64,000 bases of DNA from an uncultured Bacteroidia bacterium. GTDB lineage: Bacteria > Bacteroidota > Bacteroidia > Bacteroidales > Prolixibacteraceae. Each line of letters opens with the position of its first letter. The first letter of the stretch is position 1. Where the stretch lies: assembly GCA_903907075.1 (NCBI GenBank), contig CAIVMQ010000051.1:52193-116192 (forward strand). The letters run 5' to 3'. A program made the translations under genes and the position numbers. Shown piece by piece: positions 32,701-58,985 of the stretch. The notes under the pieces were generated by a model. That model saw nothing but the letters and a program-made list of their open reading frames with translations, searched no databases and was not told where the DNA came from.

Positions 32701-32798
32701 TCCGCTATGGTATTCAGATCATTCGCGGCAAAAGGCTGGGCAACGGAGAATGCGGTATAGAACAGAAGAAATAAAAGAACAAGGTAATTTTTTTTCAT
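29742..32798 (-). CDS. GH106-like secreted glycoside hydrolase (alpha-L-rhamnosidase family or relative)
   Basis: A 1018-residue protein with signal peptide MKKNYLVLLFLLFYTAFSVAQ. The N-terminal TIM barrel opens with PPADCWPHTRWWWPGNPVSKKEITSELEQMRSHGIRGVEQI, the hallmark of GH106 and its relatives, followed by LGMEVSLNFGGPGWIIGGEWV. Mid-protein ARSAYLLRQGNFSADIALYSP and YKVLILPNVETIPLKTLEFIEKYVEGGGIVISLERLP form an amidotransferase-like fold common in such enzymes. The C-terminal 170 residues are a jelly-roll sugar-binding domain (GNIAEVSLNNRPLGTSWMRSQRLDVTD). GH106 enzymes release L-rhamnose from pectin side chains and other glycans. It is divergent from the beta-helix gene across a 330-bp gap and stands at the edge of the carbohydrate locus. 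Confidence 0.85.
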   Translation of the reverse strand: MKKNYLVLLFLLFYTAFSVAQPFAANDLNTIAENFKNPPADCWPHTRWWWPGNPVSKKEITSELEQMRSHGIRGVEQISMGEVYQKGNIPYLSDEFMEVLKHTVSEAKRLGMEVSLNFGGPGWIIGGEWVKEEDKSKDLVPTFRDLSGNQTYQGVLPDFLIKTKRSWEFYTPKLDGNESLLAVIAGKIDKDGKIDEQSLINLTSTVTDKTISWKVPEGEWRLMAFWLKKNGISNAVDHFSKTAMMSYCDFLGNKFYSAFGDEFGKTVDSFFADSFELASLSSGINWSTGLLEEFKVQKGYDLAPYLPAIWWNVGEISPKIRYDVNEFLHKTGLNVFFKTFLGWCEDHHIQGRIQAYGFNTDNIEGSGMAHIPEMEITAGEKDAADWFDTRIGPKQYVASGAHIYGRKVVSAEVYTFIHWERYRETLEELKIASDGYLLAGATKFYNHGFNFSPEKIVTPTRSLPFAAYIQPQNVWWNYYPKLAEYIARSAYLLRQGNFSADIALYSPLANQWAINVMNMRKWTREFNWGELGGLLISNGYNYDLINDDALQNLATADGDEINIRAMHYKVLILPNVETIPLKTLEFIEKYVEGGGIVISLERLPEKSTGFIGYKESDEKVKLLVDNIFNKPKWSEGKADNPYGLKEPRAEQGVIMNSYGKGRSYQLKNVIDRQIWWDKRSSALDPFLETIRKHIAPDFGIDFAAEGMRKNEGLTFIHRKVGEKDFYFVSNIQDKPSAVPVTFRVKNKIIRKWNPFTGQITPVLGFSEAKDGIKVPLNLAPYESMFLEFSPGEPASYVSESDLVEISTDGAQKLSAIALQNGSYHSIIHIGKEVQRITSDINGIPAPYLISGLWSIELKGIGFPLFFTKSESLFSWINNAETRNFSGTGKYEISFKLPSEYSEKGIKLELDLGKVGNIAEVSLNNRPLGTSWMRSQRLDVTDAVKSGENKLVVFVTNTLINRIAAMKEPPPVPQELISRFGGGKENAESPREFGFKQLPLSGLLGPVRLIPSKIVYLKH

Positions 32799-40952: not shown

Positions 40953-42263
40953 ATGAAAAATCAACTCTGTCTAATTCTTGCCTTGCTTATCTTTCCTTTC
41001 GCCACAGCAGTTAATGGGACGAATTTAAGTGCGGGTATTTCAACTATTAATATTTCCCCACCATTAGCGATGAAATTTGCCCTGGGAGGATATGGCGAAA
41101 GGATGAATAAACCTGCCGAAGGTATTCACGATTCAATTTGGGCCAAGGCACTAACCCTAAAATCGGGTAACCGAAAATATGCACTGATCACTCTTGACCT
41201 TCTGATGCTTCCCGACAATGTCAAAAGTGATCTGATTAAAAGGGTTCCAAAAATGGGATGGAACATGGGGAATATCATGCTGTTGCCCAGCCATTCACAT
41301 GGCTCTCTTGAAATGGATGCTTTAAACAGTAAAAACAACCTTAACAATCCAAATCTAGGTATTTTCCAACCTGAACTACTGGAATTTCTGATTGATAAAT
41401 TGGCTACATTACTAAATGAGGCAGACAAGAATTATCAGCCGGTGCGGATTGGCACGGGGAGTCAGGTGATTGAGGGTCTAAACCAAAATCGACGCAAAGA
41501 TCCGGAGATTGAGAAAGAACTTATTGTTACACGTGTTGACCTTGAAAATGGAAAACCACTCGCAGTTCTGGTTAATTGGACTGCACACCCCACTTTTCTG
41601 GATGGACCCGACATGCTCCTCTCTGCTGAATGGCCTGGATATCTGCAAACAAACCTTGAGCAGATGATTGGCAATGGAGTGACAGCGATGTATTACAATG
41701 GATCAGAGGGTGATCAGGCACCATTGTTAGAAGGGGCACAAACAGGGTATGAAAAAATTGAATCCTATGGCAAAAAAATAGCCGATCATGCATTTGATTT
41801 ATATAAAAAAATCAAATCACAAGAGTCCACCGAATTTAAATACAATTCCAATTCACTTAAATTACCTAAACATATTGCACACCCCTCATTTATGAAAACC
41901 GGAGGGGAGGAATACGGACTTAATGAAAAAACGGTCAAAATCGCGATGGATATGTTGGGACCAAAGAGAGTTATCCTTTGTGCCGTAAGGATAGGTGATT
42001 TAATTATTTCGGGGGCTCCGGGTGAGATGAGTGCAGTTCTTGGACAACATATTAAGAAGATATTAAAAGCCGACGGCATAAAATTCGTGGCCATCGGAGG
42101 GTTAGCCAACCAATGGATTAGCTATATCCTAAGTAAGGACCAATATCTCTATGGTGAAGGCTACGAATCTAGCATGAGCTTTTATGGCCCTAATTTAGGA
42201 GCCGTAATCTCTGATGAAGCAATAAAAATTGCTCAACCTCTAATTAAAAATGATAAAAATTAA
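40953..42263 (+). CDS. Secreted neutral/alkaline ceramidase-like hydrolase, copy B
   Basis: A 436-residue tandem paralogue of the preceding gene, similar along the whole length and at DNA level. The signal peptide is MKNQLCLILALLIFPFATAVNGT. The same motif series is kept: ISTINISPPLAMKFALGGYGERMNKP, LLPSHSHGSLEMDAL, VNWTAHPTFLDG, NGSEGDQAP, APGEMSAVLGQ and QYLYGEGYESSMSFYGP. All predicted zinc ligands and the candidate nucleophile Ser are therefore intact in both copies, which argues for two active enzymes, perhaps with different leaving groups. Its last codons overlap the start of the GH20/GH67-like gene by 14 bp if the longer start of that gene is used. Confidence 0.87.
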   Translation: MKNQLCLILALLIFPFATAVNGTNLSAGISTINISPPLAMKFALGGYGERMNKPAEGIHDSIWAKALTLKSGNRKYALITLDLLMLPDNVKSDLIKRVPKMGWNMGNIMLLPSHSHGSLEMDALNSKNNLNNPNLGIFQPELLEFLIDKLATLLNEADKNYQPVRIGTGSQVIEGLNQNRRKDPEIEKELIVTRVDLENGKPLAVLVNWTAHPTFLDGPDMLLSAEWPGYLQTNLEQMIGNGVTAMYYNGSEGDQAPLLEGAQTGYEKIESYGKKIADHAFDLYKKIKSQESTEFKYNSNSLKLPKHIAHPSFMKTGGEEYGLNEKTVKIAMDMLGPKRVILCAVRIGDLIISGAPGEMSAVLGQHIKKILKADGIKFVAIGGLANQWISYILSKDQYLYGEGYESSMSFYGPNLGAVISDEAIKIAQPLIKNDKN

Positions 42264-44595
42264 TGGTATGATAACCCGACTACTCCTAAGTATAATGCTT
42301 CTATTTTCGGCTGTAAGAGGTTCGGCACAGGTTATCGACCTGAGTAAAGCCAAAATAATATCGCCAGCGAATAGTCAATTTAACATAATAAAAACTTCTA
42401 TTCGCATGCTGCAAGAAGAGGTAAATAAGCGTACATCTATCAATCTTTCAAGCACATACTCGTGGATCAAAGAACCAATCATTGCATTGGCTACGAATCA
42501 GGATTTAAACCTGTATGGGATGGAGGTCCCTAAACGATCAGGGGTGAATTTACCAGAATCAAAACGTGAAGGTTACCGGATTTTTTGCGCCAAAAGAGAT
42601 GGGAAAGATGTGGTTTGGGTCATTGGTGCGGATGAGCGGGGAGTAATGTTTGGAGTTGGGAAATTGCTCCGAACAGCGATCATGAAGAAAAATAAATTTT
42701 CACTTGAAGGGGCACTGGATTTTGCCAGTTCACCTATGCAATCGATACGTGGTCATCAGTTAGGGTATCGCAACACCAATAATTCTTTAGACGCCTGGGA
42801 TGTAAAGAAGTACGAGCAATACATCAGAGAGTTAGTTATTTTTGGCACCAATGCCGTTGAGACTATTCCTCTGGACGATAACGATCATAGTCCGCTGATG
42901 CCTATACCACCTGCGGAGATGAACAGGCATATTAGTGAGATTTGTGCTGCCTATGGTATCGAAAACTGGATCTGGACACCGGCCACGATCGACTTAAAGA
43001 ATAAGGATTTACGTGAAAAAGAGCTTATAAAGAACGAGAAGATCTACAAAGATCTGCCTCAACTTGACGGGGTATTTTTTCCGGGAGGTGATCCGGGAGA
43101 TAACCATCCCCGAGAAGTTCTCCCATTCCTTAAAGAGCTGCATGAGAGGCTGATAAAATATCATCCAAACGCAGGTATTTGGATCTCGTTACAAGGGTTT
43201 AGTGAAGAACAGATCGATTATTTTTACACCTATCTGGATGAGCATAAACCGGATTGGCTAGCTGGAGTAGTCTCTGGACCGAGTAGTCCGCCAATTGCAG
43301 AGACCAGATTTCGTCTTCCGGCAAAATACAAACATCGCCAGTATCCTGATATAACGCACAATGTGAGATGTGACTATCCTGTTGTAAACTGGGATCAGGC
43401 TTATATGCTTACCATTGGTCGGGAGGGTATCAATCCGATGCCTAATTACTACGCTAAGATCCATCAGGCCTATGCTCAGTTTACCGATGGTTTTATCTCC
43501 TATTCGGATGGCATCCATGATGATGTAAATAAGGTAACCTGGAGTATGCGTGGGTGGGATATCGAAAACGAGCCAATTGATATTATGACCGATTACTGCC
43601 GCTTCTTTTTTGGCTTCGAGGTGGCTCAAAAGAGCGCAGCGGGGATTATGGCCCTTGAACAAAACTGGGTAGGTCCAATCCGGAAAAACGGCGCCATAGA
43701 ACCTACCTTTGAATACTGGGAAAACCTCGAGAAGGCAAATCCGCAACTTGCCAACAACTGGAGATGGCAACTCTTAGTCGTACGTGCCTATTACGACACG
43801 TACCAACGCAGAAGAAAGATTTATGAAGAAGGACTTGAGAAACAAGCGAATAAAATCCTTGCTACAGCCAATGAACTAGGCTCAGAAAAAGCGATGACCC
43901 AGGCATTGGAACTGGTAAATCTGGCTGAGACCAATCCGCAAAATCAGGATTTACACGCTAAGATTGTGAGCTATTGCGATCAACTTTTTAATTCAATTGG
44001 CTATCAATCGGATGTTGAAAAATACCATGCCTCTAATTCACAACGAAGCTGTATCCTACAATTTGTGAACTATCCGCTCAATAACCGCTGGTGGCTTGCT
44101 GATGAATTTAAGAAGATCAGTGCGATGGATAGTGAGGCAAAGAAACTTGAAAGACTTGAAGTTATTCGGAAATGGGAGAATCCGGGACCGGGAAGTTATT
44201 ATGACAATGTATCCAATATTGAAACGGGTCCACGTGTACTCACAATATCCGATGATGCAACAGATGTTGCGTGGTGGGAAGGGGGCAAAACACGAAAACG
44301 GCTCTCCTCTCAGCTCTTTCAGCAGCAACCAATATTGGAATATACGAACCTCGATTTAAATGGGAGGTATAACATCCGTGTGTCCGGTAGAGGAGAAGCC
44401 CTTCTGCGTGCCGATGGACTCAGACTCGATCCGATAGTTTACGATAAGGAGATTGGCGGTTTTAAGGAGTTTGTAGTTCCAAAAAACCTCACTCAGGATG
44501 GCACGTTAAGAGTTACCTTTGACAGGCCCGAGGAGTCGCATATCAGGTGGAGCAGTCAGTCGCATGTCTCCGATGTGTGGCTGATCAAAAAATAA
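42250..44595 (+). CDS. Secreted GH20/GH67-like putative glycosidase, copy A
   Basis: A 781-residue protein. The longest start (42250) overlaps the previous gene; Met7 (42268) lies just past its stop and gives the neat signal MITRLLLSIMLLFSAVRGSAQ. Residues 25-150 are the alpha/beta domain that precedes the barrel in GH20, GH67 and GH115 enzymes, ending VWVIGADERGVMFGVGKLLR. A TIM barrel follows (about 165-470): SIRGHQLGYRNTNNSLDAWDVKKYEQYIRELVIFGTNAVETIP, YGIENWIWTPATIDL, LDGVFFPGGDPGDNHPREV, AGIWISLQGFSEEQ and DGFISYSDGIHDDVNKVTW. The C-terminal 300 residues are helical then beta. The acidic GGDPGDNHP and GIHDDVNK clusters are candidate active-site segments. The reaction is not known. Confidence 0.78.
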   Translation: MIKINGMITRLLLSIMLLFSAVRGSAQVIDLSKAKIISPANSQFNIIKTSIRMLQEEVNKRTSINLSSTYSWIKEPIIALATNQDLNLYGMEVPKRSGVNLPESKREGYRIFCAKRDGKDVVWVIGADERGVMFGVGKLLRTAIMKKNKFSLEGALDFASSPMQSIRGHQLGYRNTNNSLDAWDVKKYEQYIRELVIFGTNAVETIPLDDNDHSPLMPIPPAEMNRHISEICAAYGIENWIWTPATIDLKNKDLREKELIKNEKIYKDLPQLDGVFFPGGDPGDNHPREVLPFLKELHERLIKYHPNAGIWISLQGFSEEQIDYFYTYLDEHKPDWLAGVVSGPSSPPIAETRFRLPAKYKHRQYPDITHNVRCDYPVVNWDQAYMLTIGREGINPMPNYYAKIHQAYAQFTDGFISYSDGIHDDVNKVTWSMRGWDIENEPIDIMTDYCRFFFGFEVAQKSAAGIMALEQNWVGPIRKNGAIEPTFEYWENLEKANPQLANNWRWQLLVVRAYYDTYQRRRKIYEEGLEKQANKILATANELGSEKAMTQALELVNLAETNPQNQDLHAKIVSYCDQLFNSIGYQSDVEKYHASNSQRSCILQFVNYPLNNRWWLADEFKKISAMDSEAKKLERLEVIRKWENPGPGSYYDNVSNIETGPRVLTISDDATDVAWWEGGKTRKRLSSQLFQQQPILEYTNLDLNGRYNIRVSGRGEALLRADGLRLDPIVYDKEIGGFKEFVVPKNLTQDGTLRVTFDRPEESHIRWSSQSHVSDVWLIKK

Positions 44596-44722
44596 TCCAG
44601 AAATTAAATAAACAGTAAAAATCAAAAATGATCACCTAATTTCAATTCTTAAATTCATCTTAAACAACATTAAGTAACAATTCAACAAATCAATATAACT
44701 AAATAATTAGCAATAAATTAAA

Positions 44723-47062
44723 ATGAAAAGAATAATTAATTCCTGGCTGACAGCAGCGCTTGTCGTACTCGTAGCCTCATGTACTGGCGAGGCAAATCAA
44801 AAGCTTGATTTATCGAATGCGGCAATTCTTATTTCTCAGAAAATAGATTCTCCGATCAAAGAAACAGCAGGTATAATTCTGCGTGAAGAGATTGGCAAAC
44901 GAACAGCCTTAGCGCTAAAGGAGGAGAACAACTGGAGAAGCAATACGATCATTGCATGTGCACGTGTCACGGATAGTGATTTATTCGGAGAGTCAATTCC
45001 CAAGCGAGAAGGGGCTAATTTACCCGAGTCCAAGAGGGAGGGTTATCGTCTGTTTCATGAAATCAGAAACGGGAAGAATATCCTATGGATTATTGGAGCC
45101 GATGATCGGGGTATTATTTATGGCATAGGGAAATTACTTATGACTGTTCAAACGCGAGACAAGCAGATCACTTTAGCGGCAGGCACTGATGTTGCTTCAT
45201 CGCCCGAATATTCGATTCGAGGTCATCAATTTGGCTATCGTATGACGGCTAATTCATGGGACTCATGGACCATTGCTCAGTTCGATCAGCATATTCGCGA
45301 GCAGGTCCTTTTTGGGGCAAACAGCATTGAAGGGATTCCCTTTCAAGACGAACGTATAGACACGCTAATGAAATATCCACGTTCAGTGATGAATGTAGAG
45401 CTGAGTAAAATATGTGATAAGTACGGTGCTGATTACTGGGTGTGGGCGGCTGCCGAAGTAGATTTGAAAAACAAGAAACAACGTCAGGATCTATTGGATA
45501 AATACGAAATCTTCTTCAAGGAGTGCCCCCGTTTTGACGGTGTATTTTTCCCAGGTGGTGATCCTGGCGATAACCATCCTTCTGAGGTGATGCCCTTTCT
45601 TGAAGATATGACTGCCATACTGCACAAATATCATCCCAAAGCAGGAATGTGGATCTCACTCCAGGGATTCAACAAGGAAAAGGTAGATTATTTCTTTAAA
45701 TACCTGGAGGAGAAAAACCCCGACTGGCTTACTGGTGTTGCCAATGGACCGAGTAGTCCACCGATTAGCGAGGAGCGTGAGCGTTTACCCAAAAAATACA
45801 AACTTCGCTCCTATCCCGATCTGACTCATACCGTGCGTTGTCAATTTCCGGTGAAGAAATGGGATCAGGCATTTGCGTTAACTGAAGGGCGCGAGTGTAC
45901 CAATCCGCAGCCGATGTATTACGCCGAAGTTCACAATCATGATGCTCCATTTACGGATGGTTTCATATCCTATTCGGATGGTGTTCATGATGATGTGAAT
46001 AAAATTGTCTGGAGCCAGATGGCCTGGAACACAAAAAATAACGTGAGAAGTGTCGTTGTTACCTATTGCAGTTTCTTCTTCGGATCACAAATTGCCGATG
46101 AGGCTGCTGACGCTATTCTTGCGCTGGAGCAAAACTGGGTTGGATCACTTACCGGAAATCCGTTAATAGAAAAAACCTTGAATCGCTGGAAAAAACTCGA
46201 GAGTGAGAATCCTCAGCTTTCAGCTAACTGGAGATGGCAGCAACTGGTTATGCGTGCCTATTATGACGCGTATATTCAGCAACGACTTGCCTACGAGAAG
46301 AAGCTTGAGGCGGAGGCCAACGATATACTAGCTAATGCAAAAACTGCTGGCGCCGATAAGTCGATGGATTCAGCTTTAGCACATATCCAGCTAGCGGACA
46401 AAGAATTTGTCGCACAGGATTTAAAGCAAAAAGCAATTCAATATATCGATGATTTGTATAAATCTGTAGGATTGCAAACCAGTGTGAAACTTTACAATGC
46501 TGCCGGTGCCGAGCGTGGTTGCGTGCGCGACTTTATCGATTATCCACTCAACAACAGGTGGTGGCTCGAAGATGAGTTTAAAAAGATTAAAGAACTTAAG
46601 TCAGAGGAGGAGAAGCTGACGAAAATCGAGTTTATTCGAACTTATGAGAATCCCGGAGAGGGGAGTTTTTACGACAATATCTCAAGTACCGATGCCAAAC
46701 ATGTAACTTCAGAAACGGAAGACGCGATTGACTACCTTTGGGAGAATGACGGAATAAGCCGAAAACGCCTCTCTACGCAACTCTTCCAGTTCACTCCTGA
46801 GTTACAATACACAGAACTTGATCCCAATACAAACTACCTAATTCGGGTCTCCGGATTCGGAGAGGCTCTCTTGCGCGCGAATGGAGAACTTCTAAAACCT
46901 ACGAAATACGAAAAAGGATTCGAGCACTTTAAAGAATTCCCCCTTTCAAAAACATTGTTAAAGGATGGCAAACTGAAAATCACATTCGATAAACCAAACG
47001 AAGAAAATATGAACTGGAGAAGTCAATCGAGGGTAACCGATGTTTGGGTTCTCAAACAATAA
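44723..47062 (+). CDS. GH20/GH67-like putative glycosidase, lipoprotein copy B
   Basis: A 779-residue paralogue of the previous gene, collinear throughout: NILWIIGADDRGIIYGIGKLLM, YSIRGHQFGYRMTANSWDSW, FDGVFFPGGDPGDNHPSEV, AGMWISLQGFNKEK, NGPSSPPISEERERLPKKY and DGFISYSDGVHDDVNKIVW are all conserved. It differs at the N-terminus, where MKRIINSWLTAALVVLVASCTGEANQ ends in a good lipobox (VASC). The first copy would be released into the periplasm and this one anchored, possibly on the cell surface. The 127-bp AT-rich gap before it has no terminator. A hairpin follows the gene. Confidence 0.78.
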   Translation: MKRIINSWLTAALVVLVASCTGEANQKLDLSNAAILISQKIDSPIKETAGIILREEIGKRTALALKEENNWRSNTIIACARVTDSDLFGESIPKREGANLPESKREGYRLFHEIRNGKNILWIIGADDRGIIYGIGKLLMTVQTRDKQITLAAGTDVASSPEYSIRGHQFGYRMTANSWDSWTIAQFDQHIREQVLFGANSIEGIPFQDERIDTLMKYPRSVMNVELSKICDKYGADYWVWAAAEVDLKNKKQRQDLLDKYEIFFKECPRFDGVFFPGGDPGDNHPSEVMPFLEDMTAILHKYHPKAGMWISLQGFNKEKVDYFFKYLEEKNPDWLTGVANGPSSPPISEERERLPKKYKLRSYPDLTHTVRCQFPVKKWDQAFALTEGRECTNPQPMYYAEVHNHDAPFTDGFISYSDGVHDDVNKIVWSQMAWNTKNNVRSVVVTYCSFFFGSQIADEAADAILALEQNWVGSLTGNPLIEKTLNRWKKLESENPQLSANWRWQQLVMRAYYDAYIQQRLAYEKKLEAEANDILANAKTAGADKSMDSALAHIQLADKEFVAQDLKQKAIQYIDDLYKSVGLQTSVKLYNAAGAERGCVRDFIDYPLNNRWWLEDEFKKIKELKSEEEKLTKIEFIRTYENPGEGSFYDNISSTDAKHVTSETEDAIDYLWENDGISRKRLSTQLFQFTPELQYTELDPNTNYLIRVSGFGEALLRANGELLKPTKYEKGFEHFKEFPLSKTLLKDGKLKITFDKPNEENMNWRSQSRVTDVWVLKQ

Positions 47063-47232: not shown

Positions 47233-48141
47233 ATGAAAGAATTATACCCACTCAACGGAATCGTAACGGTATTAAACACCCCGTTTAAGTCGGACGATTC
47301 AATTGATTTCGGGGCCCTAAAACACAATATCAGGGAAGCGATAGCTGCTGGCGTTGCCGGATTTTTAGTCCCTGCGATGGCCTCCGAGGTATACAAGCTT
47401 TCCGAAACCGAGCGATTAAATATGGTTGAAGCAGTCTTGCAAGAGGTTCAAGGAAGGGTGCCTGTTATCGCTGGTGCTGGAGAGATCGATTTATCGCGAA
47501 CCAAAAAATTATTGAAAGCGTATGTGGATTTAGGTTGTAGAAATGTGCTTTTCCAGATCCCCTATGAAAATGACATTCAGTTTAAGGATCATTTTATGAA
47601 CCTTGCAGATATAGATCTGGATATGATTATGCTACAGGACTGGAATGCCTCCGGCTATGGGCTTCCTGATGGGCTGATTTGCGAACTATTTGAGACTGTT
47701 CCCGCTTTTCGATGTCTGAAAATCGAAACCGTGCCGGCGGGAATTAAATACTCACGGATACTTGAGCTCACTCAAGGGCGATTAAATATCAGCGGCGGCT
47801 GGGCTGTTACTCAAATGACTGAAGGGCTAAGGCGCGGAGTTCATGCGTTTATGCCAACGGGAATGCATTGGATCTATGCCAAAATCTATGCCCTTTGGAA
47901 GGAAAATAAAGAAGAGCAGGCAACCGAGTTATTTCAAATGATATTACCTGTGCTTAGTTTTTCTAACCAGCACCTCGATATCTCGATCCACTTTTTTAAA
48001 CGATTGCTTTATAATCAGGGGATTTATCCAACAGATCGTGTGCGTGATCCAATCCTCCCATTCGACACTATTCACAAACAGATAGCCGATAAACTTATTG
48101 ATCAAATTATACCTTTAGAGAATTATCTTAAAGAGAAATAA
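47233..48141 (+). CDS. Dihydrodipicolinate synthase/N-acetylneuraminate lyase family aldolase, atypical active site
   Basis: A 302-residue cytoplasmic TIM-barrel protein of the DapA family: LNGIVTVLNTPFKSDDSIDFGALKHNIREAIAAGVAGFLVPAMASEVYKLSETER at the start, VIAGAGEIDLSRTKKLL near 78, and the Schiff-base lysine in FRCLKIETVP near residue 161. In ordinary members a tyrosine stands in a YNVPxRTG-type strand before the lysine; here that strand reads MIMLQDWNASGYG, so the usual catalytic tyrosine is absent. DapA itself is therefore unlikely. Given its place among secreted glycosidases it may split or dehydrate a sugar acid (2-keto-3-deoxy type) derived from the substrate. It is the only cytoplasmic enzyme in the plus-strand run and starts 40 bp before the propeller gene. 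Confidence 0.85.
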   Translation: MKELYPLNGIVTVLNTPFKSDDSIDFGALKHNIREAIAAGVAGFLVPAMASEVYKLSETERLNMVEAVLQEVQGRVPVIAGAGEIDLSRTKKLLKAYVDLGCRNVLFQIPYENDIQFKDHFMNLADIDLDMIMLQDWNASGYGLPDGLICELFETVPAFRCLKIETVPAGIKYSRILELTQGRLNISGGWAVTQMTEGLRRGVHAFMPTGMHWIYAKIYALWKENKEEQATELFQMILPVLSFSNQHLDISIHFFKRLLYNQGIYPTDRVRDPILPFDTIHKQIADKLIDQIIPLENYLKEK

Positions 48142-48180: not shown

Positions 48181-50337
48181 ATGAAACACCTTGGATTTGC
48201 AATTGCCTTAGTATGTGTAATCTTTCTATCCTCAACAAACAAATCTATTGCAGAGCCTGTTGCCGGTATCAAGGAGGGTAAATATCTTCAGGAGATCAAG
48301 AGCGAAGTGAAACTTCCAAATCAGGCAGAGACTCCGGTAATCAACTTATTTAATGAGCACAACCAATTCGTTGTGGTAACTGTAAATGGGGTCTTTCGAA
48401 CTTTGAATGGGAACTGGAGTGGCGAACCTTTTGGTGCAGGATGGCGTACTTCCGCTATAGACAGTCGTGGTAAAATCTGGTTGGCGGCTATTCACTCGAT
48501 ACAAAAGGAGGGTGATTCTCAACAAATTGATTTACCCGATTATGCACTTAATGACACCATCACTTGCATGACCTGGGAGGATGATAAGACATTACATGTC
48601 GGTACAAACCACAATCTTTTGACATTTAGTGGTGTTTGGCAATCCCTTTCTATTGCCAAGGGAAAGAAAATTACTTCAATTCTTACGGATACAACGGGTG
48701 ATCTTTGGGTTGCCACCAATGATGGCCTACTACGCCGAATGAATGGTAAATGGGTAAATCTTGATGATGACCTGATGGCAGCGGGTCTGAAACGGAGCTA
48801 TTTTGCTCTCGAGAATGGCTTCCTCAACGGTGATCTGCTATTTGGTGGGTTATTCTCTGTGGGATGCATTGCAAAAGATGGAAATCATTGGCTCTTAAGA
48901 GGCTCTGATGGGTTACCTTATGGTCCCATTACTACCATCCGAAGCCTAAAAAATACACTTTGGCTGGGCACAGACCGCGGCGTAATTAAAAAAGATAAAA
49001 ACTGGCACTATTACAACGGCAAACGGTGGCTTGCTGACAATAAAGTCAATGACATCCTACCGATAGACCCGAATACCACCTGGGTGGCTACAGCAAAAGG
49101 TATCAGCCAGATCCAGCAGGTTGAGATGACCCTTGCCCAAAAAGCTCAGGCCTTTGAGCAGCGGATTAAACTACGTCACGATCGATACGGATTAGTGAGT
49201 GGCTCGCGTTTAAAGATCCAGGGTGATCTTTCATCGAGTGAAACTGGTACCGATGATAATGATGGTCTCTGGACAGCGATCTATCTCGCGGCTGAATCTT
49301 ATCGATATGCCGTGACCAAGGATCCCGAAGCTAAGAAATGTGCCATAAAGGCTTTTGAGGCCATGGAGCGGCTCGAGGCCATTACAGGTGTCTCCGGATT
49401 TCCTGCGCGCTCTTTCGTATCTATAAATGAAGATACGGGTAAAGGTGGCGAGTGGCATCTAACTCCCGATAAGAGATGGAAATGGAAAGGAGACACAAGT
49501 TCAGATGAGATTGTTGGCCATATGTTTGCCTATCCCCTCTTTTATGACTTAGTTGCCGAAGGAAAGATGAAAGAGCGGGTAAAAAGCCTCGTTCAACGAA
49601 TTATGGACCATATAGTTGATCACAATTTTCAACTCGTTGATCTCGATGGCAAAGCTACACGATGGGCCGTCTGGACCCCCGATTCAATCAATTACTCCAA
49701 TAACTGGTGGTATGAGCGAGGGATCAATTCGATGCAGATTCTGGCCTTTCTCAAGGCAGCTCTTCATGTCACAGGTGATCAGAAATTTGAAAAAGCATAT
49801 CAGACATTGATCCAAAAACATCATTATGCAGAAAATATAGTTCCGCAAAAGATGTATGGACCATTCGACATAAACCATTCGGATGACGAACTGGCCTTTT
49901 TGCCGAATTACATCTTGTTAAGATATGCCAATGATTCGAAATTACTCCCTACCTACCTCAAGAGTACACAACGAAGCTGGAAGGTTGAACAACCCGATCG
50001 GATACCTCTATGGAATATCATATCGAGTGTAGCCCTTAAAAAAGATTGCGATTTAAAGATTGCATTAGAAGAGCTTCAGCAGATACCGATGGATTTGATA
50101 ACCTGGCGAATGGAAAATAGTCACCGCTGGGATCTTCCCGAAGATCAACTAAGTGATCGTTTTGGAAAGCCACAGGCAATCCACCCTATTCCGACCCCTG
50201 AGCGTGGAATAGCAAAATGGAATAGCAATACCTATCTGTACAATTCGGGCAATGATGGCTATGGAGAAGACGATGGAGCCTACTTTCTTTTACCTTATTG
50301 GATGGGGAGATATCACCATTTATTAATTGAAAACTAA
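48181..50337 (+). CDS. Secreted beta-propeller plus alpha/alpha-toroid protein, copy A
   Basis: A 718-residue protein with signal peptide MKHLGFAIALVCVIFLSSTNKSIAE. Residues about 50-310 are propeller repeats of the two-component-regulator type (LWVATNDGLLRRMNGKWVNLDDD, LWLGTDRGVIKKDKNWHYYNGKRW, WVATAKGISQI). Residues about 325-718 are helical hairpins of an alpha/alpha toroid (DDNDGLWTAIYLAAESYRYAVTKDPEAKKCAIKAFEAMERL, SSDEIVGHMFAYPLFYDLV, NSMQILAFLKAALHVTGDQKFEKAYQ), a fold shared by many lyases and glycosidases. The conserved end GYGEDDGAYFLLPYWMGRYHHL is shared with the paralogue. Unlike hybrid sensor kinases that use such propellers, no membrane helix or kinase is present, so it is likely an enzyme or glycan-binding protein. 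Function unknown. Confidence 0.8.
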   Translation: MKHLGFAIALVCVIFLSSTNKSIAEPVAGIKEGKYLQEIKSEVKLPNQAETPVINLFNEHNQFVVVTVNGVFRTLNGNWSGEPFGAGWRTSAIDSRGKIWLAAIHSIQKEGDSQQIDLPDYALNDTITCMTWEDDKTLHVGTNHNLLTFSGVWQSLSIAKGKKITSILTDTTGDLWVATNDGLLRRMNGKWVNLDDDLMAAGLKRSYFALENGFLNGDLLFGGLFSVGCIAKDGNHWLLRGSDGLPYGPITTIRSLKNTLWLGTDRGVIKKDKNWHYYNGKRWLADNKVNDILPIDPNTTWVATAKGISQIQQVEMTLAQKAQAFEQRIKLRHDRYGLVSGSRLKIQGDLSSSETGTDDNDGLWTAIYLAAESYRYAVTKDPEAKKCAIKAFEAMERLEAITGVSGFPARSFVSINEDTGKGGEWHLTPDKRWKWKGDTSSDEIVGHMFAYPLFYDLVAEGKMKERVKSLVQRIMDHIVDHNFQLVDLDGKATRWAVWTPDSINYSNNWWYERGINSMQILAFLKAALHVTGDQKFEKAYQTLIQKHHYAENIVPQKMYGPFDINHSDDELAFLPNYILLRYANDSKLLPTYLKSTQRSWKVEQPDRIPLWNIISSVALKKDCDLKIALEELQQIPMDLITWRMENSHRWDLPEDQLSDRFGKPQAIHPIPTPERGIAKWNSNTYLYNSGNDGYGEDDGAYFLLPYWMGRYHHLLIEN

Positions 50338-50373
50338 TAATTTAGGAAGCTCAGTATAAATAAGGGGTTTAAT

Positions 50374-52545
50374 ATGAGTATCATAAAAGTATTTCTTATC
50401 CTTCTCGTGCTTACCATCTCTGCAAATGGGATGCCACTGAATGCCCAGGGCACTGCCGGCGTTCAATTAAAATCCTATTACCAGGAGGTTAAGACTGATT
50501 TAAGACTACCGGACAAGGCCTCGCCCACGATTATCAAACTCATTAAAGGTTCAGATCATCTTGTTGTTATTACCTCAAACGGCGTATTTAGGTATAAAAA
50601 TGGAACTTGGAGGGGCGAACCATTTGGAAGTGATTGGAAGAGTGCCACAGTCGATACAAAAGGGGCCATATGGCTTGCCTCTGCACAGAACATTCAGCGC
50701 GAAGGAGAAGTGACGAACTTACTCCTTCCCGAATTTGCTCAAAGAGACACCATTCTTTCGCTATTCTGGGAAGATGGAGAGACGTTACAGGTAGGGACGA
50801 CCAATGGACTATTAACCTACGACGGGAGTTGGAATTCTGTACCTATCACGATCGGAAAGCGAATAAATTCAATTGTTAATGATCACCTTGGGGATCTTTG
50901 GCTGGCAACCAACGATGGGTTAATTCGACGAATTGCACAAAAATGGTTCAATCTGGATGATCATATAATGGCCCAAGGCCTCAAGCGCCACTATTTCTCC
51001 CTTGAGAGTAATTCGGATAAAAAAGAGGTGCTCTTCGGAGGACTTTTTGCACTTGGGTGCATTTCAGAAGCGGGTGATGATTGGCTATTAAGAGGTGCCG
51101 ATGGTCTCCCCTACGGCCCAATTACCACAATCCACAGCAATGAAAAAACACTATGGCTTGGAACGGATCGCGGAGCGATTAAAAAGGATGCTAAATGGCA
51201 CTATTACAATGGCAAACGGTGGCTTCCGAGCAATAAAGTGAACGACATTCTCACCGTTAACGCACACGAAACGTGGATAGCTACAAATAAGGGAGTTAGC
51301 ATAATCTCAGAGACCTCTATGACACTGGATCAAAAGGCAAAAATATTTGAGAAACGGATTAAATTAAGGCACGACCGCTATGGTTTAATCAGCCGATCGC
51401 AATTAACGACTCCGGGCGATCTATCGTCCAGTAAGACCTTAACGAATGACAACGACGGACTGTGGAGTTCAATCTATCTGGCTGCCGAATCATTCCGATA
51501 TGCAGTCACCAAGGATCCTCAGGCGAGAAGTCGTGCTGCCCGAACCTATGAAGCGCTGGAGCGGCTTGAAACCGTTACCGGAATACCTGGGTTACCGGCC
51601 CGCTCATTTGCAGCAGCGGGCGATACGGTCATCCAGTCGCGCTCGCCACATCCCAAGAAGTGGCATCTCTCGAACGATGGGAAATGGCAATGGCTTGACG
51701 ATGCCAGTTCAGATGAACTTGCGGGCCACATGTTTGCGTTCGCACTTTATTATGACCTTGTTGCCGATGCAAAAACGAAGCAGCGGATAAGAGGGCTTGT
51801 TGATCGAATCATGACCCATATTATAACGAATAATTTCCAACTCATTGATTTCGATGGAGAGCCAACCAAATGGGCAATCTGGAATCCCGATTCACTGAAC
51901 AACATACCGGGAAGGTGGTACGAACGGGGTACAAACTCGCTACAGATACTCTCATTTTTAAAAACAGCGGTGCACATTACCGGCGATCAGAAATTTGAAA
52001 AGGCGTACGAGTTTCTGATACATAAACATCATTATGCACAGAATACGCTTGAGGCCAAGCGAGCTTATCCGTTTGAGAATAGCCATTCCGATGACATCTT
52101 AACCTATCTCCCCTATTACAATCTCTTAAAATATTCGGCTGAACCCGAATTACGGAAGATATATCTCCAAAGTTTGGACCGCGCATGGAATATTGCCCGG
52201 CCAGAGAAGACACCCCTGTGGAATATCATTGCCACAGTTTCGCTAATGAAAGAGTGTGATATACTACTCGCCAAGGAAGAACTGGAACTTATACCTATGG
52301 ATATGATTACCTGGACGATGGAGAATAGTCACCGTTGGGACCTCCCCTCCGATCAGCTTTTGGACCGTTCACAAAAAAGGCAATCGACCCGAATAATTCC
52401 GACTCCCGAAGCGTCAATAATAAAGGCGAATTCGAATCCACGCGAATATGATTCAGGTTCGGATGGGGCTTATGAGGATGACGGGGCCTATTTCTTACTC
52501 CCCTACTGGATGGGGAGATACCATAGGCTGTTTGTCGATAATTAA
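50374..52545 (+). CDS. Secreted beta-propeller plus alpha/alpha-toroid protein, copy B
   Basis: A 723-residue tandem paralogue of the preceding gene, with signal peptide MSIIKVFLILLVLTISANGMPLNAQ. The layout is the same: propeller blades LWLATNDGLIRRIAQKWFNLDDH and LWLGTDRGAIKKDAKWHYYNGKRW, then the toroid with NDNDGLWSSIYLAAESFRYAVTKDPQARSRAARTYEALERL, DELAGHMFAFALYYDLVA and the terminal YEDDGAYFLLPYWMGRYHRL. Conserved acidic and aromatic residues (NDNDGLW, SSDE, EDDGAY) are kept in both and are the best candidates for a catalytic or metal site. The genes are 36 bp apart and surely co-transcribed. No terminator was recognised in the 219 bp before the convergent gene. Confidence 0.8.
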   Translation: MSIIKVFLILLVLTISANGMPLNAQGTAGVQLKSYYQEVKTDLRLPDKASPTIIKLIKGSDHLVVITSNGVFRYKNGTWRGEPFGSDWKSATVDTKGAIWLASAQNIQREGEVTNLLLPEFAQRDTILSLFWEDGETLQVGTTNGLLTYDGSWNSVPITIGKRINSIVNDHLGDLWLATNDGLIRRIAQKWFNLDDHIMAQGLKRHYFSLESNSDKKEVLFGGLFALGCISEAGDDWLLRGADGLPYGPITTIHSNEKTLWLGTDRGAIKKDAKWHYYNGKRWLPSNKVNDILTVNAHETWIATNKGVSIISETSMTLDQKAKIFEKRIKLRHDRYGLISRSQLTTPGDLSSSKTLTNDNDGLWSSIYLAAESFRYAVTKDPQARSRAARTYEALERLETVTGIPGLPARSFAAAGDTVIQSRSPHPKKWHLSNDGKWQWLDDASSDELAGHMFAFALYYDLVADAKTKQRIRGLVDRIMTHIITNNFQLIDFDGEPTKWAIWNPDSLNNIPGRWYERGTNSLQILSFLKTAVHITGDQKFEKAYEFLIHKHHYAQNTLEAKRAYPFENSHSDDILTYLPYYNLLKYSAEPELRKIYLQSLDRAWNIARPEKTPLWNIIATVSLMKECDILLAKEELELIPMDMITWTMENSHRWDLPSDQLLDRSQKRQSTRIIPTPEASIIKANSNPREYDSGSDGAYEDDGAYFLLPYWMGRYHRLFVDN

Positions 52546-52764: not shown

Positions 52765-54396
52765 CTATTTTTTTAATTCTTCAGCCTGTTTTTGCATTTG
52801 TCTCCAATATGCATCAGGGCCAAATCGTTTTCGTTTCATTGGATAAGAACCATCGTCCATTCCGAGGGTAAGTAAAGTTGTAAGGACAATTAGAATTGGA
52901 ACAACGCTCCACCATCTCCAGAATTTCCAGCTCAGATTCCATTTTTTATCTTCGGGAAATGACACCGGTGTCGGAGGGCTTTCGAGATGATCTTTATTTC
53001 CTTCTGTTGTTATCAATATGAAAATAGTCAGAAATGCTAAAAAGAAATAACTCACATACTCAATAACATTATTTCCTGGTTTCCAGTCATTTATCCGGTG
53101 ACCGGCAATTCCAACAAGGCTAATTGTAATCAAGATCATAAATAGTACAATTCCTTTTTCAACTGCCGTTTTCGGAACCAGTATCAGTTTTCCTTTATGA
53201 TACAGCCACATACAATAAATCACTACGCCAATACAGAATAAGGCCGTAAGTAGAAACCATTGCCAGGCAAATAATCCATAATTGGGGCCATCGGGAAGAA
53301 TATGGTAACGATTACCCCAGTCGATTACATTCTTCTGTAAGTTCAAAACCATCATTACAATTACAAGGAAGAAAGCAGACAACAGATCAAGGTGCTTTTT
53401 ATTCCCGTCATCTGGTATTTTTGCCAGTCCTCCTTTGATGAATTTGGCGATTCCAAGAGCTATTCCCAGCCCCATAAAGAAGCCAAAACCTTCTTCGGCT
53501 AATTTCCATGCGAACACGGAAGGAATTCCCAGCCACCCTATCCGCACTGGCAGATGAATAAAAACGGCGATGATATATGCGATTGGACCTATCAGCATGG
53601 CATAATTGGTAAACATCAAAGCTGCCCTGTTTTTTTGGTTATAGTGGTGCACTAATAATACTACCAGAATTCCCAGATTGCCTCCCCAGCTTTCACTCCT
53701 GTTTGGTGGTGCTAGCTCTAATCCGCCAAATTTGGTTAAAGTAAGATATCCGACCCACCAGCCAACAGCGCATCTAACGTATAAAGCAGCTTCTTTCCTC
53801 TCTTTCGGACGTAACAGCCAATAAACGGATGAGATCAATAGTGTAGTGAGGGCTGCAAACCATTCACTATCGTTAAATACCTCAACACCAAAACGCTGAA
53901 AAGCAATATTTTGATCAGGAAGAAGTACGAAATACAGGTACTCAAGAAACCAGAAGCTAGCAATTACCAACGCTACATGGACATATTTTTCCAGTTCTGA
54001 GATTCTCTTTGTAAAAGCGAGTGCAAGGATAGCTGCACCTACCCCTGTCCAGAGGAGAGCGATAAAGCCAAATCCAAAATAACCATAAGCAACATCTGGG
54101 AAAGAATCAGAAGTAATGTAATAATTGTGTTCCATATAACTCATTGAACCGCCAAATGACCATCCAATTGCGCCAAATAAACCAATGATCAAAGTTCGAC
54201 GATACCAGTCTTCTCTTCCGGATCCAAATACGGCAGCCATAGCCATCAAGGCTCCGGGAAGCATTGCCCCGGCCTCATGTCCATAATTACCACGCCATCC
54301 CCAGCCAAATGCCATTACTACTGCGCATAACAAAGCCATTGACGTGATACCTGGCTTTAAAAAATTTGAAAAATTAAATTTAGTGTATGCCTCCAT
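52765..54396 (-). CDS. Polytopic inner-membrane protein of unknown family
   Basis: The listed ORF starts at 54468 inside the upstream gene; Met25 (54396), 7 bp after that gene's stop, gives MEAYTKFNFSNFLKPGITSMALLCAVVMAFGWGWRGNYG and is the better start (543 residues). About 13 hydrophobic segments are visible, with conserved-looking loops MAFGWGWRGNYGHEAGAMLPGALM and GWSFGGSMSYMEHNYY near the N-terminus and a charged C-terminal tail (RKRFGPDAYWRQMQKQAEELKK). I cannot place it in a known transporter family. Tight coupling to a secreted sialidase-fold protein and the lack of any other transporter in the locus make a role in importing the released sugar a fair guess; an acyltransferase or sensor role cannot be excluded. 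Confidence 0.75.
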   Translation of the reverse strand: MEAYTKFNFSNFLKPGITSMALLCAVVMAFGWGWRGNYGHEAGAMLPGALMAMAAVFGSGREDWYRRTLIIGLFGAIGWSFGGSMSYMEHNYYITSDSFPDVAYGYFGFGFIALLWTGVGAAILALAFTKRISELEKYVHVALVIASFWFLEYLYFVLLPDQNIAFQRFGVEVFNDSEWFAALTTLLISSVYWLLRPKERKEAALYVRCAVGWWVGYLTLTKFGGLELAPPNRSESWGGNLGILVVLLVHHYNQKNRAALMFTNYAMLIGPIAYIIAVFIHLPVRIGWLGIPSVFAWKLAEEGFGFFMGLGIALGIAKFIKGGLAKIPDDGNKKHLDLLSAFFLVIVMMVLNLQKNVIDWGNRYHILPDGPNYGLFAWQWFLLTALFCIGVVIYCMWLYHKGKLILVPKTAVEKGIVLFMILITISLVGIAGHRINDWKPGNNVIEYVSYFFLAFLTIFILITTEGNKDHLESPPTPVSFPEDKKWNLSWKFWRWWSVVPILIVLTTLLTLGMDDGSYPMKRKRFGPDAYWRQMQKQAEELKK

Positions 54397-54403
54397 ATTT
54401 CGA

Positions 54404-56284
54404 TTATTTTGAGACAGCACTAAACTCGTCAATATAAAAGCGGGCATTTGCAACCGGCACATCGGCACCGTTAAGAGGAGCTGCCGGAGCTTGGTTTGGG
54501 GTTTTACGGCTTGGGGTATCCCGATACGGACCGGTACGAAAAGAGATCCGCTCTACGGACTTCACAGCTTCAGCAAGTTGACCATTTTTCAACATATTTT
54601 TACCGTTAATGGCTACAGAATAACTACCAAAGAGTTTAGTATCGATCGAAATACTCAGCTCATACCACTCTGCTGATTTATATTCTTGAAGAATCACTTT
54701 TTTGTTTCCCTCAATAGCCTCAATAACTCCCTGATCGTTAAAACTTATCCGCACGGGACGATTGCCATATCTATCTGTTACATCAATATCAAGTACTCCC
54801 TCCTTGGCTTGGCCGGGGAAAACTTTTACCCTAATTTCAGCTGCTGCAGTCTCTTCAAATACCCGAATAGCTCGTGCATAATCATACGGATCTTTATCCT
54901 GCAGCAATAGGCTTTTATTGCTTGTCGAAGGAAAATCGACCACGTCAACAGGTGCCCATTGGGGAGCATAGATGTTCCATTCATCGATCGTTCCTCCTGT
55001 ATTAAGGTTATCAAATGCATCATTTACAACACCCTTAACACTATATCGTATTGGCAAAGGAATTCTACTGATCCATATATCCTCTTTATTCATACTATAT
55101 GACAGCCACATATCGTTACCAGGAGGATTGCCATTACCCTCATCAATCCCTCGCATATAGCACGGTCCAAAATCTTTCCACCTCCCCATAAAGCGACGCG
55201 GTGGAACTTCTCCCTGCACCAGTATCATAGTGTCAAATATTATTCCATCATCACTCGATGTAATAATCAAGGGATAACGGTATTCGTCCATCTCTATTGG
55301 ATTGTAGCAAAGCGCATAGCGACCATCTTCTGTTGCTTGTCCCCACATTTTACCTCCAGGCATTATTAATGTTGGAGATTTTACCGGATCGCTGAAATGA
55401 ACTCCATCGTCTGATAATGCGCACAAGGAGCGTTTCCATAAACCAACAATCTTTCCATCTTTCCGGTGGAAATAATTAAATGCTGATCCTGATTTAGCAT
55501 TCGCATAAAACCCGTCGAGGCCACGATCTTCGTCCCACCATTGCATGGTTTTAAGTTTATCAGCCAACAGGGAGCTACAAGCTGCAATAAAACCTTTATC
55601 GGGAGATTTGGTATAAAACGGATAGCTGGTATTCGATTCATTCCAGTTGGCGTGGCTGGTATATCGAATAAAATAAATTGGGCCATAAGATCCATCTTTA
55701 AAAGCCTCACGAACCACACGTCCGATACCCCCTTTTTGAAATGGGTCTTCGGAATGTCCATAGAACCCAAGGACTAACAATCGGCCATCGGGTGCCACAT
55801 AAAACCCCATACGTTGATGCATCATATATCCGTTATACCCTTCAGGGATTTTCACCCCCGGGGGAGCGATGTAGGGAGGAAAAACAACATCGGGTTTCTT
55901 CCAGGTGCGGCCATCGGTGGAGGTTGTAATCAATGTTTGTCCTGGAGCAATATGTTCATCGACAGGATTGCTTAGATATTGCTGATAAAAATGGTTGTTC
56001 CAGTAACAAAGATTAGACCCATGATTGTAAGTCCAGCCATGATCATCCGACCATTCGGGATGCCTTCTGTTTGCACGCATCGTCTGATGGCTCTCGGTAC
56101 CTATTGCATACCGCAATCGTCCTTCATGAACATTTGGATCTATGGTGACGCCTCCAACATAACGAATCGGTTCATTCACACTTCCCGTTTGGGCTGCCAG
56201 ATGATTCGACAAGAAGGATATTACGATAAAAGAAAGGATAAAGGAGAAGCAGGAAATTTTATTGGAATTAAAAGAATATATCAT
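54404..56284 (-). CDS. Secreted sialidase-fold (BNR-like) propeller protein with C-terminal jelly-roll
   Basis: A 626-residue protein with signal peptide SCFSFILSFIVISFLSNHLAAQ. Residues about 35-420 are a six-bladed propeller of the sialidase/arabinanase kind: WSDDHGWTYNHGSNLCYWNNHFYQQYLSNP, QTLITTSTDGRTWKKPDVVFPP (Asp-box-like), GLWKRSLCALSDDGVHFSDPVKSP, and LIITSSDDGIIFDTMIL (Asp-box-like). Residues about 425-620 form a beta-sandwich (DPYDYARAIRVFEETAAAEIRVKVFPGQ ... ARFYIDEFSAVS) seen in glycan-binding or lectin-like domains. It may be a glycosidase or carbohydrate-binding protein; no arginine triad of true sialidases was recognised with certainty. It heads a two-gene minus-strand operon with the polytopic membrane protein. 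Confidence 0.78.
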   Translation of the reverse strand: MIYSFNSNKISCFSFILSFIVISFLSNHLAAQTGSVNEPIRYVGGVTIDPNVHEGRLRYAIGTESHQTMRANRRHPEWSDDHGWTYNHGSNLCYWNNHFYQQYLSNPVDEHIAPGQTLITTSTDGRTWKKPDVVFPPYIAPPGVKIPEGYNGYMMHQRMGFYVAPDGRLLVLGFYGHSEDPFQKGGIGRVVREAFKDGSYGPIYFIRYTSHANWNESNTSYPFYTKSPDKGFIAACSSLLADKLKTMQWWDEDRGLDGFYANAKSGSAFNYFHRKDGKIVGLWKRSLCALSDDGVHFSDPVKSPTLIMPGGKMWGQATEDGRYALCYNPIEMDEYRYPLIITSSDDGIIFDTMILVQGEVPPRRFMGRWKDFGPCYMRGIDEGNGNPPGNDMWLSYSMNKEDIWISRIPLPIRYSVKGVVNDAFDNLNTGGTIDEWNIYAPQWAPVDVVDFPSTSNKSLLLQDKDPYDYARAIRVFEETAAAEIRVKVFPGQAKEGVLDIDVTDRYGNRPVRISFNDQGVIEAIEGNKKVILQEYKSAEWYELSISIDTKLFGSYSVAINGKNMLKNGQLAEAVKSVERISFRTGPYRDTPSRKTPNQAPAAPLNGADVPVANARFYIDEFSAVSK

Positions 56285-57941: not shown

Positions 57942-58985
57942 ATGAAGACTATTTTTCGTTATTTGGGAATTGTTTTGGCGTCGTTGTCGATTCTTTCGTG
58001 CAATGTTAAGACTAAAGTTGAACCTGTTAAGAAAACAGAGGTCAGTGATTTTTTTGGGCAGTGGACCATTGATATCCGCGGTGGAAGTGTTGGCTGGCTA
58101 GAAGTTCGTCAGGAGAAGGACTATCTTGATGCCGATTTGCTTTGGGGCGGAGGAAGTGTAGTGCCTGTATCAAGTGTATATTTAAGTGAAGATAAAAATC
58201 TAATCGTCACACGTGTTGATAAGGTTATTCGAACTAAAGATGCAAACAACGAACCGATCCGTACCCAGATGAATACCAATTGGTTAGTCGTTCAGCGCAA
58301 AGGGGATAAGATTGTTGGGATTTTATATAATCCACGCCGGGATGGAAGTGGTGTTGACACTACCTCCTTTGTAGGGACAAAATTACCTGCTCCACCGGCC
58401 GTTCCGGATCTTACCAAGTTAAAGTTTGGAACACCGATTGCCCTTTTTAACGGTAAAGATCTTACGGGCTGGAGATTGATTAATGAGAAACAGAAGAATG
58501 GATTTTATGTTGAAAACGGACTTTTAACAAATAATCCTGTTCAAGTTGAGGGTGCACCTCGTGTAAGTTATGGCAACCTAAGGACAGATCAGGAATTTGA
58601 AGATTTCAATCTTACCCTTGAAGTGAATGTTCCAGAAGGGTCTAACAGCGGTGTTTACCTGCGTGGCATGTATGAGGTTCAGGTTATTGATTCCTATAAA
58701 AACAAGTTAGATCCTCATAATATGGGGGCTGTGTATAGTCGTATCACCCCTTCAGTAAGTGCAGAGAAACCCGGAGGAAGCTGGCAGACAATGGATATCA
58801 CCCTGTGTGATCGTCATGCTACGGTAATTTTAAACGGAGTAAAAATCATCGATAATCAGCCTATTTATGGCCCAACAGGTGGAGCAATGAAATCTGATGT
58901 GTTTTCACCAGGACCTATCTATCTTCAGGGAGATCATGGTAAGGTATCCTACAAAAATCTCATTCTTATCCCAATCATCAAGTAA
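57942..58985 (+). CDS. DUF1080 (3-keto-disaccharide hydrolase family) lipoprotein
   Basis: A 347-residue protein starting MKTIFRYLGIVLASLSILSCNVKTK, with ILSC as lipobox. Residues about 30-150 are a beta-rich extra domain (FFGQWTIDIRGGSVGWLEVRQEKDYLDADLLWGGG). The DUF1080 jelly-roll (PF06439) spans about 160-345: GTPIALFNGKDLTGWRLINEKQKNGFYVENGLL, DFNLTLEVNVPEGSNSGVYLRGMYEVQVIDSYKN, WQTMDITLCDRHATVILNGVKIIDNQPIYGPTGGAM and GPIYLQGDHGKVSYKNLILIPI. Members hydrolyse 3-keto-glycosides made by Gfo/Idh/MocA-type oxidoreductases, so a functional link with the Tat-exported oxidoreductase 19 kb away is conceivable. It is transcribed alone and closed by a strong hairpin. Confidence 0.88.
   Translation: MKTIFRYLGIVLASLSILSCNVKTKVEPVKKTEVSDFFGQWTIDIRGGSVGWLEVRQEKDYLDADLLWGGGSVVPVSSVYLSEDKNLIVTRVDKVIRTKDANNEPIRTQMNTNWLVVQRKGDKIVGILYNPRRDGSGVDTTSFVGTKLPAPPAVPDLTKLKFGTPIALFNGKDLTGWRLINEKQKNGFYVENGLLTNNPVQVEGAPRVSYGNLRTDQEFEDFNLTLEVNVPEGSNSGVYLRGMYEVQVIDSYKNKLDPHNMGAVYSRITPSVSAEKPGGSWQTMDITLCDRHATVILNGVKIIDNQPIYGPTGGAMKSDVFSPGPIYLQGDHGKVSYKNLILIPIIK

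Follow-up and report, generated by a model that had tools for sequence, protein, structure and literature searches.

Results

Two tandem genes for secreted propeller-toroid proteins

The window, that is, the whole stretch of 64,000 nucleotides analysed here from an uncultured bacterium of the Prolixibacteraceae (Bacteroidota), contains two adjacent genes whose products can be aligned end to end with 57% identity, the start of gene 2 lying 36 bp after the stop codon of gene 1. Their features are the following (numbering of residues as in gene 1, counts over homolog toroids as defined below):

48181..50337, + strand: gene 1, secreted propeller-toroid protein of 718 aa (ORF, alignment, AlphaFold2)
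48181..48255, + strand: signal peptide of gene 1, about residues 1-25 (N-terminal hydropathy peak; helix 2-18 in the model)
48268..49128, + strand: seven-bladed HTCS-like beta-propeller of gene 1, residues 30-316 (profile, model, Foldseek)
49009..49047, + strand: blade 6/7 motif YYNGKRWLADNKV (Y277, R282, W283), retained even where blades 1-5 are missing
49129..50334, + strand: (alpha/alpha)6 toroid of gene 1, residues 317-718 (AlphaFold2, Foldseek)
49255..49266, + strand: D359-N-D361-G, at the start of toroid helix 361-379 (92/93 homologs)
49498..49509, + strand: S440-S-D442-E443, at the start of helix 441-457 and followed by H447 (S440 and D442 in 93/93, E443 in 91/93)
49876..49887, + strand: H566-S-D568-D569, at the start of helix 567-582 (D568 in 92/93)
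50116..50133, + strand: loop motif N646-S-H-R649-W-D651 (R649 in 92/93, D651 in 93/93)
50374..52545, + strand: gene 2, tandem paralog of 723 aa with the architecture of gene 1 and its key residues retained
50461..51321, + strand: propeller of gene 2, residues 30-316 (aligned to gene 1)
51322..52542, + strand: toroid of gene 2, residues 317-723 (aligned to gene 1)

Both proteins open with a hydrophobic signal sequence, as judged by hydropathy, and neither shows a second hydrophobic or membrane segment beyond it; no lipobox is seen in the signal peptide of gene 1. Pfam searches detected no kinase, regulator or any further domain in either protein, and the stop codon follows directly after the toroid. 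The AlphaFold2 model of the whole gene 1 protein reached a pLDDT of 94.1 and a pTM of 0.91. An earlier note on this DNA, made from the sequence alone, had described two such reading frames, with a propeller joined to a toroid and no kinase, and this description is borne out by the ORFs, AlphaFold2, Pfam and Foldseek.

A sensor-type propeller that is partly lost

Profiles of the family retrieved from the PDB the sensors BT4663 (4a2l), BT3049 (3v9f) and BT4673 (3ott) of hybrid two-component systems (HTCS), with E-values down to 1.5e-39, and Reg_prop repeats of Pfam were matched in 44 of 57 family members, the single window proteins giving only marginal matches. Seven blades were built by AlphaFold2 for residues 30-316, and HTCS sensors rank first when the whole model is compared with Foldseek, all of which agrees with the likeness of the propeller to periplasmic HTCS sensors pointed out in the earlier note.

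The homolog alignment identifies blades 1-5 as the least conserved region of the family. Every member has residues aligned to blades 6-7, which carry P246, W261, G267, Y277, R282, W283, T304 and G307. In the family tree, from which the two sequences of the window were removed by de-duplication and which includes their closest relatives (L039, L040 and L041), a clade of 21 sequences, mostly from Acidobacteria and Verrucomicrobia, is missing blades 1-5 in almost all its proteins, according to both tree and alignment. These short proteins have a signal peptide, next a stretch of some 100 residues that includes a Y-F-x-G/S-K/R-R-W/Y-L-P-D-D motif, and then the toroid. One Elusimicrobia sequence (L095, n=1) appears without any blades, and some other short rows of the alignment are contig-end or frameshift fragments.

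As one clade has lost blades 1-5 and kept blades 6-7 together with the toroid, these last two elements make up the core unit, and part of the family can do without the full propeller. The variation or loss of blades 1-5 also makes it less likely that glycan binding depends on the propeller. The earlier note had proposed the propeller as the glycan binder, and an essential role of this kind is not supported in view of the absence of these blades in about 20 relatives. Glycan binding by the propeller could apply to full-length members, but it cannot be a general mechanism.

A toroid without a match in the sequence families searched

Foldseek comparison of the full-length model gave essentially propeller matches only, so that the toroid had to be modelled separately (residues 317-718, AlphaFold2; pLDDT 93.0, pTM 0.94). 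Against the PDB this model yielded 21 matches at E < 0.001, namely 19 AGE-type epimerases/isomerases, one GH88 enzyme and one terpene cyclase, followed by GH146, GH76 and GH9 enzymes. The nearest fold was that of the cellobiose 2-epimerase 3vw5 (E 8.7e-6), and other near folds were those of GH88 4q88, GH146 6yqh and GH76 4v1s, with TM-scores of about 0.4-0.5 and identities of ~10% for the best matches. Structure prediction and comparison with toroid lyases, the check proposed in advance, thus confirmed the toroid and found no polysaccharide lyase among its best 50 PDB folds. No meaningful match was obtained among predicted viral structures, nor any match in plasmid and phage collections.

Sequence searches with the toroid gave no match in Pfam, NCBIfam or the PDB, even with a 57-member profile. 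In pairwise profile comparisons (hhalign) with families gathered from related genomes, the highest probability was that for GH88 (PF07470; 63%, covering 127 columns only), followed by AGE (PF07221; 46%), neither of which gave a Pfam match, the heparinase N-terminal toroid (Hepar_II_III type; 31%), GH76 (28%) and GH127 (15%); as a control, GH88 against AGE reached 93% with identical settings. These low probabilities, together with the fold matches, indicate a six-hairpin-type sugar-enzyme fold that is a member of no tested family, and with a TM-score of ~0.5 the chemistry is not fixed by fold kinship.

Conservation was analysed over 93 distinct homolog toroids with a reporting limit of 88%. The residues D359, N360, D361, G362, R410, W425, S440, S441, D442, E443, H447, T493, W495, Y549, D568, R649, D651, E674 and Y706 are kept in 90-93 of them. 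The DNDGLW and SSDE blocks, which the earlier note had singled out, are almost invariant (D359, D361, S440 and D442 in 92-93/93), whereas its third block, EDDGAYF, is conserved among close relatives only: G699 is present in 84/93 and the acids fall under the 88% limit, with the invariant Y706 in the same helix. A canonical Ca2+ motif Dx[DN]xDG was considered for DNDG and rejected, because its first Asp is not conserved. H447 is the only histidine of the toroid that comes close to invariance when the level is set at 95%, H333 being present in 87/93. In (alpha/alpha)6 enzymes the loops at helix starts line the active-site end of the barrel, and the location of D361, D442/E443 and D568 at helix starts of the model suggests that these acids would cluster at one end of the toroid. 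Altogether, the Reg_prop and HTCS matches, the toroid seen by AlphaFold2 and Foldseek and the conserved residues show that this is a true protein family and not a chance likeness.

Family size and distribution

A pattern scan that took one genome from each species found at least 576 relatives. They occur in more than ten phyla overall, and the taxa concerned include Bacteroidota, KSB1, Poribacteria, Armatimonadota, Verrucomicrobiota, Planctomycetota, Acidobacteriota, Elusimicrobia, Caldithrix and Paenibacillus, among others. Within Bacteroidota the family is rare and patchy, the toroid profile being found in 7 of 396 sampled genomes, several of them with up to four copies among the matches listed; a tally of 128 genomes was set aside, as it consisted mostly of propeller-only matches. 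Most genomes of the host genus carry several copies (up to eight matches), and the present one carries six.

Gene neighbourhood

The genes around the tandem pair in the window are the following:

29742-32798, - strand: GH106 rhamnosidase
starting at 33129: beta-helix GH141-like protein
36215-38038, + strand: protein of 607 aa without a Pfam match, belonging to the conserved cluster
starting at 38085: TAT-type Gfo/Idh glycoside 3-dehydrogenase-like protein
starting at 39647 and 40953: two ceramidase-like proteins
42250..47062, + strand: two paralogous tandem GH67N/GH20b-like proteins of 780 aa (the second starting at 44723)
47233..48141, + strand: DHDPS/NanA-superfamily aldolase, directly upstream of gene 1 (~40 bp)
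52765-54468, - strand: membrane protein with the motif GWG-RG-YGHE-GAM and no Pfam family
54404-56284, - strand: stand-alone homolog of BT1020 residues 24-604, without the C-terminal barrel (E 1.8e-135)
57942..58985, + strand: protein with a 3-keto-disaccharide hydrolase domain (PF06439), also belonging to the conserved cluster

A TPR protein sits between the homolog of part of BT1020 and the 3-keto-disaccharide hydrolase, after which come a peptidase and a GH92 enzyme. The core gene order of this cluster is conserved in related genomes, and close relatives also conserve the aldolase as upstream neighbour. A URO-D superfamily protein lies between the aldolase and the family gene in several relatives (L043:214-1431, L044:1196-2287, L226:14153-15124); it is possibly a methyltransferase, which could indicate an O-methylated sugar or another methyl donor. 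The GH67N/GH20b-like pair gives sub-threshold Pfam matches only, and its second copy no PDB match; its link to propeller-toroid genes recurs in Bacteroidota, Caldithrix (L079) and Acidobacteriia (L090), and it is a candidate uncharacterised glycosidase family tied to the propeller-toroid family. The ceramidase-like proteins and phosphatase neighbours prompt the speculation of a ceramide- or glycosphingolipid-type substrate. As for the membrane protein at 52765-54468, an N-terminal motif like its own was seen by eye in a protein encoded beside the family gene of a Planctomycetota MAG. In another family of the order, a relative with 37% identity is encoded close to a ceramidase-like gene (the loci noted for motif and relative are L108:1861-3342 and L230:9585-10874).

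A locus syntenic with the window cluster in a congener (G399:C40) contains five family loci, one of them interrupted, together with GH127, GH92, 3-keto-hydrolase and phosphatase genes; its continuation reads GH92, the third family gene, GH127, phosphatase, two more family genes (including the interrupted one) and a SusD-like gene, the last assigned by eye from position and sequence. One family copy of this locus (L224:6853-8953) is split over two frames by an in-frame TAA and is probably a decaying duplicate. In the genome of the window itself, paralogs adjoin GH78 alpha-L-rhamnosidases (contigs C9 and C99), GH127 (C77) and a SusD-like gene (C37). Glycan-degradation genes next to the family in the genus thus comprise GH127, GH92, GH78, GH106 and 3-keto-glycoside genes, and GH78 occurs within 8 kb of 12 of the 62 family genes, against 2.5 expected, an excess that comes mostly from one inherited locus.

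Most relatives outside Bacteroidota are solitary and have no conserved operon partner. Weak links that recur across phyla involve GH67N-like (L079, L090), Gfo/Idh (L070, L108), GH141-like beta-helix (L102), GH84 (L077, L088) and GH20 (L068, L102) proteins, with a sulfatase also among the neighbours. In Paenibacillus (L085, L096, L100), the family gene is flanked by a histidine-phosphatase-like and a PhyH dioxygenase-like gene, and the conserved cluster to which they belong also includes metallophosphoesterases.

Discussion

A putative glycan-cleaving toroid

A sensor-type propeller joined to a toroid with no kinase, the lack of a Pfam or NCBIfam family covering this toroid and the glycan-degradation neighbourhood made a new lyase or hydrolase, as put forward in the earlier note, a fair guess. 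The position of the toroid outside Pfam and NCBIfam and its neighbourhood uphold it, whereas the lyase half is the weaker one, with no lyase among the best 50 folds. With moderate confidence, the proteins can be assigned to an uncharacterised carbohydrate-active family in which the toroid, with its carboxylate-rich site, is a secreted catalytic domain that cleaves glycans, probably by hydrolysis. The sugar-enzyme fold, the near-invariant acids, the glycan-degradation neighbours and the variable blades 1-5 argue for this reading; against it stand the lack of a homolog of known function, best folds that are epimerases at a TM-score of ~0.5, the few operon partners outside Bacteroidota and a GH78 link in the genus that is mainly one inherited locus.

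The acid-rich end of the toroid would be the active site. Its substrate would be a complex glycan, probably one that contains rhamnose and/or uronate, in which it would cleave a glycosidic bond, most likely by acid/base hydrolysis. Blades 6-7 would pack on the toroid and help to shape the substrate cleft, blades 1-5 would be an accessory part, perhaps for stability or specificity, and the tandem and multi-locus paralogs would each cut different linkages of one substrate. A wider and more tentative proposal, somewhat less likely than not to hold, is that the toroid founds a new CAZyme family spread over more than ten phyla. The catalytic unit of this family would include the last two blades of the sensor-derived propeller, which would have been trimmed to just those blades in the mostly Acidobacteria/Verrucomicrobia clade, and the enzymes, alongside 3-keto-glycoside chemistry, would complete the breakdown of a rhamnose/uronate-rich glycan.

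Hydrolysis is more likely than elimination for this family. A poly- or oligosaccharide lyase of toroid fold would remove the proton beside the uronate carboxylate and eliminate the 4-O-linked sugar, giving unsaturated or 2-keto-3-deoxy acids that would pass to the adjacent DHDPS-family aldolase. The conserved position of this aldolase, the invariant Tyr (Y549, Y706) and near-invariant Arg (R410, R649) and His (H447) of the toroid, and nearby rhamnosidases and GH67N-like proteins suggestive of a uronate-containing substrate are consistent with such a reaction. Toroid lyases, on the other hand, use sets of an Asn/Arg/His neutraliser and a Tyr/His base, and the conserved set found here consists mainly of carboxylates; moreover, the heparinase toroid profile scores no better than GH88 or AGE, and a GH88 unsaturated uronyl hydrolase was not found in this genome, which leaves a lyase unlikely.

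Less likely still is a non-catalytic secreted sensor or binding protein, in which the HTCS-like propeller and a degenerate toroid would serve glycan capture or signalling. The propeller is clearly of HTCS type, but the acidic set of the toroid is what is most conserved across more than ten phyla, as is typical of catalysis, while the propeller can be lost and no kinase is fused or adjacent. Membership of an already characterised CAZy family with neither a solved structure nor a Pfam model seems improbable to the same degree, given a toroid without Pfam, NCBIfam or PDB sequence matches and literature searches that found no paper with the propeller-toroid architecture. The least probable alternative, a periplasmic sugar epimerase or isomerase akin to AGE/cellobiose 2-epimerase and acting on reducing ends, draws on AGE-family epimerases as best toroid folds, but these reach a TM-score of only ~0.5 and a profile probability of 46%, their catalysis uses several His where H447 is the nearly invariant one here (H333 in 87/93), and AGE enzymes are usually cytosolic whereas the propeller-toroid proteins are secreted.

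If the toroid is indeed glycan-cleaving, it would represent an unclassified enzyme family, hundreds of whose members occur in bacteria of soil, fresh water and the subsurface and have in many cases probably been described only through their sensor-like propeller repeats. It would also help to identify the glycan targeted by multi-paralog clusters that pair 3-keto-glycoside genes with rhamnosidases.

Comparison with known systems

A described enzyme family with the full architecture, which would have spoken against novelty, was sought in Pfam, NCBIfam, the PDB and the literature, and none was found; in particular, literature searches retrieved no described protein combining an HTCS propeller with a toroid. 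The toroid family, its fusion to an HTCS-type propeller and the two-blade form appear to be undescribed, as judged against these sources and not against CAZy profiles. PorZ of the T9SS shows a weak likeness in its propeller, with NCBIfam matches below cut-off (a score of 12 for the window proteins against the PorZ cut-off of 260 bits), and is without a toroid. GH88/GH105 and AGE enzymes share the six-hairpin toroid, a similar size and conserved residues at helix starts, and differ in their motifs, with ~10% identity, TM-scores of about 0.45-0.5 and profile probabilities of 63% and 46% for GH88 and AGE, respectively.

The closest layout is that of BT1020 of Bacteroides thetaiotaomicron (PDB 5mqr), a GH142 enzyme with an (alpha/alpha)6 barrel (PMC7263609). 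This glycan-degrading beta-L-arabinofuranosidase likewise joins an N-terminal beta-propeller (PF24067) to an (alpha/alpha)6 catalytic barrel, so the architecture is not unprecedented. However, 5mqr is matched by the family profiles of neither domain at E<10 and lies outside the best 50 folds of the toroid, which makes BT1020 and the propeller-toroid proteins different sequence families. Finally, the HTCS sensors BT4663, BT3049 and BT4673 have the same type of propeller by sequence and fold, but with more blades and with membrane, kinase and regulator parts, whereas the proteins of the window consist of a single seven-bladed propeller and a toroid, an arrangement that, if the proposed function is true, would show the reuse of an HTCS-type propeller inside an enzyme.
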